DNA of 30,149 bases from a virus, in the IMG/VR virus record IMGVR_UViG_3300030098_006558, positions 1 through 30,149 of that record; one strand, given 5' to 3'. A program made the translations under genes and the position numbers. Below, one piece after another: positions 13,830 to 21,289 of this stretch (within the stretch, counting starts at the first letter, position 1; every line of letters starts with the position of its first letter). The notes beneath the pieces were generated by a model. That model did not search any database. It saw only the letters and a list, made by a program, of their open reading frames with translations, and was not told where the DNA came from.

Positions 13830-15341
13830 TTACTTCTCCTTTAGCCAATCATTTTTAAGTTTAGTAACCATCGATTTGTAAATTTGATACGCACTATTAT
13901 TTTTCTTTTTATCAATGGCGCGTATAGCACTGTCGATCTGATTTTGAATGAAATCCCAATCGCTATGATTTTCTGGAATTGCCGCTATGATTTTTGGCGC
14001 AATGTCATAATATTTTTCTACCTCATTAGGCATATCTTGCATGAAGGTATCGCGAAATTTTCTTAATTTTGTAAGCGTTGGGCCATCATCAGCCTCACCT
14101 CTCCGATGAACAATTGCAGTTGTCAAAAAACATTCACCAGCATCATTATCTTCTTGTCCGTCATTCGGGAGATCAGGGTCAAACATATCATCAGTTGTCG
14201 CTGTGGTTTGGCCGACTGCGTCTGGATCAGTTGCTGTGTCTACACCACCTACTGTGTCCACTGCCTCAATAGCCTCATTATAAGCTTGTTGGCTGGTAGC
14301 TGCTTTGCCTATAGCTTCAACACCATCGCGTGTGTCAACAGGATTAGCAATGTCTGTGGTTTGTGCTAAATCTTCACTGACAGGATCACCACCAAAGAGT
14401 GAACTTCCTAATTGTCCAAATCCTTTTCCAATTCCCGCAATAGCATCACCAATGCTGTCGTAGCTAACAGTTGGATTTCCAAATTCATCAATGTCAGAAA
14501 AATCAAATCTGGCTGTGTCAGGAATGTCTGGAAGATTATCAAAAGTTTGACCATATCCAGACATACCACCGCTTGCCATCAGTTCATCAAAACTGGGCGC
14601 ATAATTTGGTGACTGCGGCCCAAAAACATCTTGAAAGCTTACTGCCTCTGGCTCAATTTCAACTGCATACGGATCGAAAAGTGCTGGAACTTCTGTCACT
14701 GTAAAATCTGGCGGTTTCGCACCAAAATCCACAAAGTTTTGTGTTTGTGATGCGTTTGCTCTGGCGTTTAAAGCATTTTCAACCGCCTCATTTAAAGAAG
14801 TTCCCGCAAGTCCAAAAGTGGAGCTTGCCGTCATTGCTGACGGAACATCTCTCAGACCAATCGTTTGCCCTGGTGTCGTGCCAAACACATCAAATTGTTT
14901 ATCTAAAAACTCGTTTGCTGGCCCAATTTGAGAAGCAATGCCAATAGCACTGCCGACAGGCCCACCAAGTAAACCACCAAGCATTCCCGCAGTGTCAAAA
15001 TTTCTACCATAAAGATCAGCAAAATCATTGGCAGTTTGAACATTTGAAGTTGAACCGTCAGGGCCACCTTGCTCCACCTGTTCTCTGACAACATCACTCG
15101 TCGCTTGATTTCGTTGTTCCTCTCGTTTTCGCGCCTCCTCTTCTTCCCGACGAGCAACAGCAAGAGCGATCCGTTCAGCTCGAGGCGTGAAGTTTTGAAA
15201 ATCAAATGGGGTCGGCAAAAATGGCCGATCTGCAAACGGGCCAGTGACTGGGTTTGACCCATAAAAAGACCGATTGATATAGGGGTTTTGGATTTCTATC
15301 GGCCTACCCAAGCCCAAAAGCCCTGGAAGATACGTTGCCAT
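13830..15341 (-). CDS. Large acidic virion-cluster protein with conserved C-terminal Cys domain
   Basis: A 503-residue protein directly downstream of terL (TGATG overlap). Residues 1-60 are Pro/Gly-rich (MATYLPGLLGLGRPIEIQNP). A charged helix follows (AVARREEEEARKREEQRNQA). The middle 300 residues are acidic, low-complexity and Gly-rich. The last 100 residues form a distinct domain starting ECFLTTAIVHRRGEADDGPT, then LTKLRKFRDTFMQDMPNEVE, KYYDIAPKIIAAIPENHSDW and a Lys-rich end. That CxLTTAvv..rGe.Ddg..L..LR.FRD pattern recurs at the C-terminus of unrelated phage proteins and resembles CFI-box C-terminal domains. The function is unknown, perhaps anchoring or processing. Confidence 0.82.
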   Translation of the reverse strand: MATYLPGLLGLGRPIEIQNPYINRSFYGSNPVTGPFADRPFLPTPFDFQNFTPRAERIALAVARREEEEARKREEQRNQATSDVVREQVEQGGPDGSTSNVQTANDFADLYGRNFDTAGMLGGLLGGPVGSAIGIASQIGPANEFLDKQFDVFGTTPGQTIGLRDVPSAMTASSTFGLAGTSLNEAVENALNARANASQTQNFVDFGAKPPDFTVTEVPALFDPYAVEIEPEAVSFQDVFGPQSPNYAPSFDELMASGGMSGYGQTFDNLPDIPDTARFDFSDIDEFGNPTVSYDSIGDAIAGIGKGFGQLGSSLFGGDPVSEDLAQTTDIANPVDTRDGVEAIGKAATSQQAYNEAIEAVDTVGGVDTATDPDAVGQTTATTDDMFDPDLPNDGQEDNDAGECFLTTAIVHRRGEADDGPTLTKLRKFRDTFMQDMPNEVEKYYDIAPKIIAAIPENHSDWDFIQNQIDSAIRAIDKKKNNSAYQIYKSMVTKLKNDWLKEK

Positions 15342-16792
15342 CAGACTACATAACTCGTGTCAACTTCTATGGTTGCACCCCAACCATAGCGCGAACCATG
15401 CGAAGCAGTTATTGCTTGCTCGGCAAAAGTTAAGCAAAAGGCATCAGCCAAATCTGGCGATCTTATCCCTCGTTTCCGCATCTCGTCTTTACTCTCAATT
15501 TTTATTTTTCCGCTCGAGGTAAATGTAAATCGTGGCGTTGCTAACTCGTGAACAAGTGATGGGTCATCTGGCAATTTACATTCTTTGGCCTCAAACCATT
15601 CTCGAGCACGACCCCAAAGCTCATCGCGTTGTCGCATATATTTATCTGTAAGCGATGCACTCTCAGCAACGTTTATGCCTCTCGTTGGCAAATCTAGCTC
15701 CAGACAACGATCAACAACGCCAGCACCAATGCCAATAACATCTATACAAATTGTCTGCGGTCTATCTTGAATCATTGTCGTTTCATACTCATTCAAAATA
15801 ATTCCAGACAGCTCCATCGTGTCCTTGTTGCGCCAAGTCTTTATTGGCTCAATCAAGGCATTTCCTTTGCGCTTTGCGAGTGCTGACCTGTCGCGACCTG
15901 ATCTCGAAACATCCACACCCCAAATGACTGGAGCAACAGGAGAACCCTCAACATCACGAGTGAGTGAGGCGTTTATAAGATCCAACGGGATATAAGTGTC
16001 TTCATCAGACGGAGGAAACTCTCCCAACACTCGAGAATAAAATCCCGCACTCTCTTCGCCGTATCGGTCAGCCATGTCGCGAATGAAGTCGTCCGATACC
16101 AGCGGGTTGTCTTTACAACTAACAGTCTTAGTCCACCAATCATGCGATAAATCCGTATGTGTTCGATAAAAAAATCCACTGTTGCGAATTGGATTGCCAA
16201 GCAGCAAAGTCGTTGCGTTGTGGCCCGACATAGATCCACTTCCAGACTCAAATATAGTTTCTGGAATGCCGCTGGCTTCGTCTGCAATGAGAAGCACCGC
16301 TCCAGGCATCTCAACGTGTACGCCAGCAAGGCTCTCTGGGCGTTCTTTTGAAGCGGTTTTACACGCACAAAATACAGCACTTGGATTGCTTTTTAACACC
16401 ATCCGATCCGATGTGGTCTCAAATAAATCGCCGATTGCTGGCGGCATTTGCTTGTGTCGGCGTTTTACCTCGGCAAACAACGCATCAAATAATTGCGATG
16501 CAGTTGGGGCAGTGACAACCACTTTCGCTGGGTAGCGCGTTGTGAGAAACCAAATAATAATGGCAGCAGCACAGCTGCTTTTGCCAACGCCATGACCGCT
16601 TTTTACTGTTAATCGGCGTGTGCCAACAGCAATTTCTTGCATTACCTCAGTTTGCCAAGGCAGTGGCTTCATTTTTAAAACATTGGCGGCAAAGTCAGCT
16701 GGATTGTCGCGGTATCGTTTTACAAAATTTTTCCACGCTAAATTTTTTTCTGACAATTTTTTCCTAATTTTTTTTACGCGGGTGGTATACAA
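15341..16792 (-). CDS. terL: Terminase large subunit
   Basis: A 483-residue packaging motor. The Walker A is GHGVGKSS (66-73). The Walker B is AVLLIADEAS with catalytic D171-E172. The coupling motif is LLLGNPIRNSGFFY. The nuclease domain has acidic residues in WGVDVSRSGRD (D294), CIDVIGIGAG (D351) and SPDLADAFCLTF. The N-terminal LPWQTEVMQEI is a typical adenine-binding segment. The start is a TTG at 16792 with no good ribosome site; no better start lies upstream of the ATPase core. It is followed by overlapping virion genes and preceded by 170 structured bases and then terS. Confidence 0.93.
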   Translation of the reverse strand: MYTTRVKKIRKKLSEKNLAWKNFVKRYRDNPADFAANVLKMKPLPWQTEVMQEIAVGTRRLTVKSGHGVGKSSCAAAIIIWFLTTRYPAKVVVTAPTASQLFDALFAEVKRRHKQMPPAIGDLFETTSDRMVLKSNPSAVFCACKTASKERPESLAGVHVEMPGAVLLIADEASGIPETIFESGSGSMSGHNATTLLLGNPIRNSGFFYRTHTDLSHDWWTKTVSCKDNPLVSDDFIRDMADRYGEESAGFYSRVLGEFPPSDEDTYIPLDLINASLTRDVEGSPVAPVIWGVDVSRSGRDRSALAKRKGNALIEPIKTWRNKDTMELSGIILNEYETTMIQDRPQTICIDVIGIGAGVVDRCLELDLPTRGINVAESASLTDKYMRQRDELWGRAREWFEAKECKLPDDPSLVHELATPRFTFTSSGKIKIESKDEMRKRGIRSPDLADAFCLTFAEQAITASHGSRYGWGATIEVDTSYVV

Positions 16793-19895: not shown

Positions 19896-20044
19896 TTAAC
19901 GCCTTTGTACTTCTTTGCAATTCTCGCTAAGTGCATCATGTAAAATTCACAACAAGCCCAATCACCTCGAACAACTGCATTGATAATCTCTCGATACAAT
20001 CGATCAGCCGCCATTTGATTGTTTTTGTGCCAATCGTTTTTCAT
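19892..20044 (-). CDS. Small basic 50-residue protein coupled to primase
   Basis: The frame MKNDWHKNNQMAADRLYREI, then INAVVRGDWACCEFYMMHLA and RIAKKYKGVK. The ATG overlaps the methyltransferase stop as TAATG and its own stop overlaps the primase ATG as ATGA, which is strong evidence of translation. Two adjacent cysteines and an amphipathic helix are visible. No family is recognised; it could be a small partner of the primase. Confidence 0.78.
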   Translation of the reverse strand: MKNDWHKNNQMAADRLYREIINAVVRGDWACCEFYMMHLARIAKKYKGVK

Positions 20045-21111
20045 TAATATGCACTCACAATCGCTCGTCCAATCTGTTCCACAACTTGTGGCACGACACT
20101 ATTTCCCAACGCCTTCAATTTCATTGCCCTGCCTTCTTCGCCTTCCGTAACTCTTGGAATGCCTCGCTCCCAATCTCCAGCCACCCATCTGGATAACCCA
20201 TCAGGCGGCAGACCCAAGCACTGTTGAGGGAGCCAGACTGCCGTTTCTTTTTCACCGCTGTTGTTAAGTTGATCTGCTTGCCTATCCGTATCCTTCTCTG
20301 AGTTACTGGGTCTTCCATGCACCCCCTGTCTCTGTTGTCGCTGGCGTTGGGTGTCGGCCACATTTTTGGTAGCCCCCAACTTCCTTGATCCCTTGTAATC
20401 ATCGAGGGAGCTGTCTGGTTCGCTTTTGCTGTTGGTGTGTGCAATAATTTCATTAATGACACGGCTCTGGGGTTGACTTGCTCTCTCAAATTGGATGGGC
20501 GAGTTCTGCCCTTTCGGCTCGTTGTTGCTTGCTTGATCAAAGCCTTGTCTGATCGCTGCGGTAAATGATCCATTGTGTTTGGTGTCGCCCACATTTTTTT
20601 TGTGTCCGATGATCCAACAGCGGTCTCTTCGATGTGGGGCGTTGACACTGCAAGCTGGAATAACAAATGGGACGGCTTGATACCCGATGCTTTCCAAGTC
20701 AGATAAACTGCGTCTGAGGCCCAACGGCTCGTTAACAAACCCACGCACATTCTCTCCAATAATCCATTCAGCTTGTACAGCTTCAATAACTCTAAACATT
20801 TCTGGCCAGAGGTCACGGTCATCTTCTGCACCTCGCTTCTTCCCTGCCGCACTCCAAGGCTGGCATGGGAATCCACCGACACAGATGTCAACTCCTCTAA
20901 ATCGATCTGTCGGTAAGGTTCGGATGTCGTCAAAGATTGGCGTGTTTGGCCAGTGCTTTCGCAAGACGGCTTGGCAGAAACGGTCTTGTTCACAGAAGGC
21001 AACTGTTGAAAAAGCTCCTGTTGCTTCAAGTCCAAGGCTGAACCCTCCGATTCCTGAGAAGAGATCGATAACTGTAAAGTTTTTTTTTGAGTCAAAACGG
21101 TATCTCGTCAT
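20044..21111 (-). CDS. C5-cytosine DNA methyltransferase
   Basis: A 355-residue enzyme that transfers methyl groups to the C5 of cytosine, probably protecting phage DNA from host restriction. All core motifs are present: I, DLFSGIGGFSLGLE (16-29); IV, GGFPCQPWS with catalytic C83; VI, ENVRGF (120-125); VIII, PACSVNAPHRRDRCWIIG with RRDR at 161-164; and X, LKALGNSVVPQVVEQIGRAI near the C-terminus. The target-recognition region (about 175-300) is low-complexity and divergent. No restriction enzyme is adjacent. A second frame is open through almost the whole gene. Eight As on the minus strand (about 20594-20601) lie just after motif VIII. The gene overlaps the next small upstream gene by 20 bases. 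Confidence 0.93.
   Translation of the reverse strand: MTRYRFDSKKNFTVIDLFSGIGGFSLGLEATGAFSTVAFCEQDRFCQAVLRKHWPNTPIFDDIRTLPTDRFRGVDICVGGFPCQPWSAAGKKRGAEDDRDLWPEMFRVIEAVQAEWIIGENVRGFVNEPLGLRRSLSDLESIGYQAVPFVIPACSVNAPHRRDRCWIIGHKKNVGDTKHNGSFTAAIRQGFDQASNNEPKGQNSPIQFERASQPQSRVINEIIAHTNSKSEPDSSLDDYKGSRKLGATKNVADTQRQRQQRQGVHGRPSNSEKDTDRQADQLNNSGEKETAVWLPQQCLGLPPDGLSRWVAGDWERGIPRVTEGEEGRAMKLKALGNSVVPQVVEQIGRAIVSAY
20121..21095 (-). CDS. 324-codon overlapping ORF in the +1 frame of the methyltransferase
   Basis: Inside the methyltransferase gene, the +1 frame is open from 21095 to 20121. In its second half the reading contains protein-like blocks: VYLTWKASGIKPSHLLFQLA, TPHIEETAVG, MWATPNTMDHLPQRSDKALI, KGRTRPSNLREQVNP, MWPTPNASDNRDRG and LNSAWVCRLMGYPDGW. 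From memory, LFQL..STP, WPTP.AS and LNP.WVEWLMGFP.GW strings occur in annotated phage proteins, so this could be a true dual-coding gene. The alternative is a conserved shadow of methyltransferase DNA. No ribosome site was identified. An internal ATG of this frame sits right after the A8 tract. I keep the entry at low confidence as a candidate. Confidence 0.3.
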   Translation of the reverse strand: MTQKKTLQLSISSQESEGSALDLKQQELFQQLPSVNKTVSAKPSCESTGQTRQSLTTSEPYRQIDLEELTSVSVDSHASLGVRQGRSEVQKMTVTSGQKCLELLKLYKLNGLLERMCVGLLTSRWASDAVYLTWKASGIKPSHLLFQLAVSTPHIEETAVGSSDTKKMWATPNTMDHLPQRSDKALIKQATTSRKGRTRPSNLREQVNPRAVSLMKLLHTPTAKANQTAPSMITRDQGSWGLPKMWPTPNASDNRDRGCMEDPVTQRRIRIGKQINLTTAVKKKRQSGSLNSAWVCRLMGYPDGWLEIGSEAFQELRKAKKAGQ

Positions 21112-21289
21112 TTAATGGAAATTGTTTTGACAACCCTTGATGCGCTTTTACAAAACACTGTAAAAATATCAGCCGTTCTTCAGCAGTCATTTGTGCAAAA
21201 TCAGTCTTACAAATCTCAACAAGGTATTCGCCAGCACTCTTTGCTGCTTTCAAAATCAACTTATTTTCAAACTCGTTAAAATCAGTCAT
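21092..21289 (-). CDS. DUF6511-like small protein
   Basis: A 65-residue protein: MTDFNEFENKLILKAAKSAG, EYLVEICKTDFAQMTAEERL, IFLQCFVKAHQGLSKQFPLN, DEIPF. The pattern i.KTDla.mt.eeW..Fl..v...y..., ending DDEIPF, is common in small phage proteins annotated as DUF6511. The function is unknown. It overlaps the nuclease gene upstream by 8 bases and the methyltransferase gene downstream by 20 bases, so it is part of the early operon. Confidence 0.78.
   Translation of the reverse strand: MTDFNEFENKLILKAAKSAGEYLVEICKTDFAQMTAEERLIFLQCFVKAHQGLSKQFPLNDEIPF

Follow-up and report, generated by a model that had tools for sequence, protein, structure and literature searches.

A single stretch of phage DNA appears to encode a two-subunit C5 cytosine methyltransferase, with a catalytic alpha subunit in the annotated frame (frame 0) and a specificity subunit, beta, overprinted on it in the +1 frame. 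We put the probability of this reading, which is drawn from sequence comparison, at roughly 0.84. The DNA analysed (the window) is a 30,149-base IMG/VR virus contig; since its genes include those for portal, major head, scaffold, terminase, repressor and integrase, it stems, in whole or in part, from a temperate tailed phage. Both frames are read from the minus strand. Alpha, the putative catalytic subunit, is a protein of 355 aa (20044..21111) that matches PF00145 (1.8e-47) as well as TIGR00675 and phrog_363. The +1 open reading frame, proposed to encode the specificity subunit, extends over 20121..21095 (at most 324 codons, with TTG as the first codon) and matches phrog_1008 (6e-27). The usual one-protein annotation of this widespread phage methyltransferase is probably wrong.

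A conserved overlap with dual coding

The +1 frame is neither a product of chance nor a mere shadow of the methyltransferase gene, and both dual coding and conservation of the overlap are established. An earlier sequence-only reading of this DNA had given the extent of the 324-codon frame (20121-21095) exactly, all of the peptide strings it quoted are found within that frame, and its judgment that a random open frame of this length is unlikely agrees with simulation. When the methyltransferase protein was held fixed and synonymous codons were permuted within the gene, none of 2000 shuffles matched the 315-codon open run of the tested stretch (shuffle mean 122), and the same was true of all 5000 sequences with codons sampled according to their usage in the other genes of the window (mean of 14 stops, mean longest run of 85). 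The longest +1 runs in those other genes are 47-139 codons. Two of them, at 13830-15341 and 15341-16792, have +1 runs of 130-139 codons and exceed the other non-methyltransferase genes of the window. The +1 run has a median of 267 codons in 163 relatives and of about 103 in shuffles, and a comparable excess over shuffles was absent from the +2 frame of the same relatives.

Substitution patterns were compared in 37 cluster-independent pairs, that is, pairs from separate sequence clusters. The ratio of third- to first-position changes was 2.94 before the second gene and 2.49 after it, but 1.53 where the second gene overlaps motifs I-VIII and 0.68 where modules and the IX-like block overlap alpha. 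Third-position changes amounted to 0.244 in the overlap with motifs I-VIII versus 0.39-0.41 in the flanks. In the last part of the overlap (modules to IX), frame 0 changes more amino acids than the +1 frame (0.399 versus 0.305), which indicates that the +1 frame is constrained there and that the annotated frame is filler. The earlier suggestion that the methyltransferase frame reads its own target-recognition region in this part does not hold, because distally it is the second frame that is under constraint. The pair formed by the window and its near relative L001 gives no codon-position test itself, as the two sequences show no difference before the motif VIII boundary and the contig stops shortly past it.

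The second frame also appears to have its own translation start. This frame is offset by +1 from that of the 355-aa methyltransferase and ends with a stop codon at 20121-20123. The TTG at 21095 is just the first start-like codon to follow a stop, and the real start of beta probably lies further in. One candidate start is the TTG at 21033..21035 (LDLKQQELF..., with M at initiation), which is preceded by GGAGGG (21043..21048), a candidate Shine-Dalgarno sequence that ends 7 nt upstream and in frame 0 encodes the GG of motif I; an alternative candidate is a GTG (20882-20880) behind GAGGAG. We assign the window's own start site only tentatively. Among relatives, 88 of 102 cluster representatives have an ATG close to the N-terminus of the second protein, and 45% of these ATGs have a Shine-Dalgarno match of at least 5 bases versus 3.2% of internal control ATGs in the same frame (p about 5e-27).

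Relatives of the second-frame protein are widely distributed. Matches comprised 58 phage records and 31 IMG/VR loci in a first scan, with 80 more found by profile, and a further 66 second-frame loci lie in bacterial genomes from Bacillota, Bacteroidota, Pseudomonadota, Nitrospirota and others. Public phage records name the second frame variously as a hypothetical protein, a second DNA methyltransferase or an internal gene; the last is the case for Paenibacillus larvae phage Shelly, whose annotation already carries the label 'g55 internal gene'. We classified 190 loci with four profiles (alpha I-VIII, alpha X, second-frame N-domain, and second-frame module plus IX). At 161 places both beta domains lie in one +1 ORF, with alpha open across them and motif X in frame 0, proportions that are no census given that the classified loci were mostly retrieved via the second frame; loci beyond these places are mostly +1 too, or explained. 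When whole genomes were searched with phrog_1008, hits came from 10 of 274 in a sample of the class to which a gammaproteobacterial genome belongs, from 9 of 150 in a sample of the family that includes Paenibacillus sp. ACRRX, and from 8 of 291 in a sample of the class to which a lachnospiraceal genome belongs. Among the 41 loci obtained in this way, which include overlapping stretches of the same places, the alpha frame is at the expected offset in 40, the remaining one being at a contig edge; in two of the 40, a cassette in another frame lies downstream as well. The longest +1 runs in seven ordinary C5 methyltransferases of the searched genomes are 48-177 codons, and none of the seven contains the second-frame domains except for one marginal match (L195).

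Contig edges aside, no stand-alone copies of the second gene were found except for cassettes at two loci and one truncated recombinant. The cassettes (L077:2120-2350 and L220:2789-2965) consist of module plus IX, lie just downstream of the gene pair, clear of alpha's catalytic part, and are perhaps spare recognition modules or remnants of recombination. The third case (L179:3059-3748), in which the motif X frame is fused behind the start of a PAPS-reductase-like sequence and a catalytic part is missing, is probably a recombinant. At L156 and L159 (also L198), one indel-like shift moves both frames, modules/IX and X each changing frame, which could reflect decay, phase variation or sequencing error. 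Inspection by eye of the larger ORFs on six contigs revealed no restriction gene near the gammaproteobacterial loci. In the window, a small gene upstream of the methyltransferase (21092-21289; DUF6511, 7e-07) overlaps the methyltransferase start with its 3' end, and a search against Rfam gave no match to an RNA family in the overlap region.

Distribution of motifs between the two frames

The catalytic motifs of alpha are legible in its sequence (FSGIGG, GGFPCQ, ENV and HRRDR), and motifs I, IV (PCQ), VI (ENV), VIII and X are all present in order. Motifs I-VIII lie at 20596..21084, where alpha matches M.HhaI over residues 13-172, and motif X (ALGNSVVPQVVEQIGRAI) lies at 20059..20112, past the 3' end of the overlap, in a part with an ordinary codon pattern. 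Despite the presence of I-VIII and X, motif IX is not recognisable in frame 0 of the window, which also lacks the layout of a single-chain enzyme with recognition domain and IX in frame between VIII and X. Between these motifs alpha has a low-complexity segment (NVGDT...NVADTQRQR..., 20167..20595) that faces the beta modules and whose amino acids change faster than those of the +1 frame. Judged by these rates, the apparent target-recognition region of alpha reads as filler, with the +1 frame as the constrained one distally.

The second protein seems to be organised into an N-terminal domain, a variable array of modules and a C-terminal block. Its conserved N-terminal domain (OVN), identified from alignments and from fewer third-position changes, spans 20616..20873 in the window and overlaps alpha motifs IV-VIII. 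Ahead of it, QQELF (21009..21023) in the +1 frame is a weak candidate for a clamp-binding-like peptide of the form QxxLF. A peptide of this form is present in 57 of 102 representatives, whereas synonymous shuffles predict 4.3, and the second proteins of relatives often begin with QLTLF, QxDLF or similar. QLxLF is the bacterial sliding clamp-binding consensus (PMC4549789). The resemblance suggests that the QxxLF peptide of relatives may bind the sliding clamp; the window has only QQELF.

Between the N-terminal domain and the IX-like block, relatives carry one to six repeats, mostly of 25-60 residues, that open with W-P-T-P-x-x-x-D. In the window they follow the order T0-T13-T4: module 1 (WATPNTMDHLPQRS..., 20445..20591) is a proposed target-recognition module of type T0, which occurs in 26 representative loci and in several slots; module 2 (LHTPTAKANQTAPSM..., 20361..20444) is of type T13, found in 4 loci; and module 3 (WPTPNASDNRDRG..., 20229..20360) is of type T4, found in 11 loci. 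Among 81 representatives, 221 modules fall into 70 types and form 78 different architectures, the types being those of a stricter clustering rule, as single linkage collapsed all modules together. One module type recurs in different slots on divergent backbones, and two loci with near-identical backbones (L002 and L004) have different modules. Judged by this exchange behaviour, the 'WPTP' modules are probably target-recognition domains. The second protein of L022 (2770-3909) contains a long insert with a helix-turn-helix-like segment (TSATKLQKLTKIKKSTVDHWFRKDKYFSHPTVDQW), and so do those of L021, L023, L024, L026, L027, L029 and L030; we take this segment to resemble segments of other phage methyltransferases.

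The C-terminal block of beta (LNSAWVCRLMGYPDGW, 20181..20228), also in the +1 frame, is nearly invariant in relatives (LNPxWVEWLMGYPDGW) and resembles C5 motif IX in both appearance and position. In four single-chain relatives (L012, L013, L020 and L162), the last module and the IX-like block lie in frame 0 between motifs VIII and X. In three other loci (L101, L138 and L180), the catalytic ORF stops just past motif VIII and the +1 ORF holds the modules, the IX-like block and motif X. A profile-profile comparison of the block with ordinary motif IX placed the two in the correct register with a score that was not significant, so the assignment is based on position and pattern, from which we infer that the LNPxWVEWLMGYP block works as motif IX.

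The second protein gave no match in Pfam or NCBIfam, and a PDB sequence search with the second-frame profile gave none either. AlphaFold modelled the second protein with moderate confidence (pLDDT 64, pTM 0.34), and comparison of this model with the PDB (Foldseek, VIA-align) revealed no meaningful match. The model of the single-chain relative L013, built on four sequences to place the block in a C5 fold, has a pLDDT of 31 and was likewise uninformative.

Other explanations and the proposed enzyme

The sequence-only reading had offered two explanations for the long frame: a conserved overprinted gene, or shadows in databases caused by methyltransferase conservation. If the latter were correct, the openness and similarity of the +1 frame would follow merely from conservation of the methyltransferase protein and its codon usage, and the database entries would be misannotated. 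A shadow effect is real: against a second-frame profile built without the window and its near twin, 1000 versions of the window gene with synonymous codons permuted reach 78 bits on average. However, the +1 protein of the window scores 267 bits and the best shuffle 118, so this effect accounts for only part of the similarity and the remainder is not explained by methyltransferase conservation. Every database match does fall on the same overlap, which the earlier reading had regarded as a mark of shadows, but this reflects the conservation of the overlap. Considering also that no shuffle attains the open run, that the ratio of third- to first-position changes inverts only within the overlap and that the second frame has its own Shine-Dalgarno sites, we regard shadows as a very improbable explanation. 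The codon-position result would lose its weight here if it stemmed from a constraint on the DNA or RNA itself; the Rfam search gave no match in the region. The conserved overprinted gene is what the data bear out, by a +1 frame that is open in almost every relative, by constraint on synonymous sites, by ribosome-binding sites of its own and by the profile score.

A similarly small chance is left to ribosomal or transcriptional slippage at the A8 tract, which would yield a single polypeptide running from motifs I-VIII into the +1 modules and IX. The tract (T8/A8) is present at 20594-20601 as had been noted, it sits at the boundary between motif VIII and the modules, and the single-chain relatives suggest that the fused order would be viable. 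Nevertheless, a run of at least 7 A occurs in only 1 of 105 representatives, the second frame reaches well upstream, where it encodes a conserved N-terminal domain and has start sites of its own, and the fused product would be without motif X. Slippage is therefore rejected as a general mechanism, on account of a tract that is not conserved and a product that would miss motif X; internal initiation is conserved instead. We also considered that beta may be an overprinted independent protein, such as a regulator or a clamp-binding factor, rather than a methyltransferase subunit. The lack of any Pfam, NCBIfam or PDB match for beta would fit such a protein, as would its N-terminal domain and clamp-like peptide, for which no counterpart is found in ordinary C5 methyltransferases. 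It is nonetheless unlikely, because frame 0 has no recognisable motif IX and a fast-changing filler where a recognition domain is expected, the +1 frame carries the missing block, which is found between VIII and X in single-chain relatives, and the second proteins of L101 and L138 themselves bear motif X.

Under the preferred reading of a split enzyme, frame 0 would be translated into alpha, in which a flexible filler separates catalytic motifs I-VIII from motif X, and the +1 frame, initiated at its own internal ribosome-binding site, would yield beta, composed of the N-terminal domain, one to six exchangeable 'WPTP' target-recognition modules and motif IX. The two subunits would combine to form an active enzyme whose sites are chosen by beta, and in many relatives the leading QxxLF peptide of beta could bind the host replication clamp. 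Such an enzyme would likely serve a temperate phage by methylating its DNA at several sites, which may allow escape from host restriction; we propose this role because of the phage context and the known multispecific phage enzymes. The roles of the modules as target-recognition domains and of the IX-like block as IX, subunit assembly, clamp binding and the anti-restriction role are all inferred from these comparisons. A broader proposal, to which we would give slightly less than even odds, is that these loci form a phage and prophage family in which a module array is borne on an overprinted clamp-binding subunit, shuffling of the modules programmes methylation, which is in turn tied to replication, and the annotated recognition frame is filler.

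If the split-enzyme reading is true, the overlap would be a very long conserved same-strand overlap of phage genes, kept across many bacterial phyla. Many 'DNA methyltransferases' would need re-annotation, either because two genes have been called as one or because the second is listed as a hypothetical protein or a second methyltransferase, and the annotated protein, made by itself, is predicted to look inactive. The family would also provide a natural, swappable set of specificity modules for cytosine methylation that is directly testable.

Comparison with known methyltransferases

A split of this kind has a precedent in M.EcoHK31I, whose second gene, according to Lee, Kam and Shaw (1995), is reportedly nested within the alpha gene in another frame. 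The present layout resembles that of M.EcoHK31I (and M.EaeI) in that alpha has motifs I-VIII and X without IX, as found in the window, and IX is on a second polypeptide. M.EcoHK31I is a two-polypeptide C5 methyltransferase, of which the larger polypeptide contains I-VIII and X and the smaller contains IX, and its predicted target-recognition domain has been placed in alpha (PMC3404938). M.EcoHK31I recognises a single site as part of a restriction-modification system, whereas the present loci are mostly phage or prophage. Unlike M.EcoHK31I, the present beta has one to six exchangeable modules and often a clamp-like peptide. Plasmid searches gave no match annotated as EcoHK31I. We do not count the present family as a proven member of the EcoHK31I family and set it beside that enzyme by its layout.

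M.AquI is another split C5 methyltransferase, the second polypeptide of which comprises the distal part of the recognition region together with IX and X (PMC3404938). L101, L138 and L180 resemble it in having IX and X in the second ORF. The window differs from M.AquI in that its motif X is in alpha and its genes overlap almost fully in different frames. The C5 methyltransferases of the Bacillus phages SPbeta, phi3T, rho11 and H2 are multispecific, with tandem target-recognition domains, and presumably shield phage DNA from a range of restriction systems (PMC12707154, PMC8936443). The likeness lies in a tandem array in a temperate-phage enzyme, the modules being putative recognition domains in the present case. 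In the Bacillus phage enzymes, however, the array is part of one polypeptide and in frame with the catalytic motifs, whereas that of the window is in a separate frame. The second frame of the window matches phrog_1008 (6e-27), which is labelled 'DNA methyltransferase'; this label was probably borrowed from the overlapping gene, and the family would represent the second subunit and no complete methyltransferase. The papers searched contained no account of the overlap in the present family. What sets this family apart is that its split is nested and comes together with an array of exchangeable modules, in phages and prophages.
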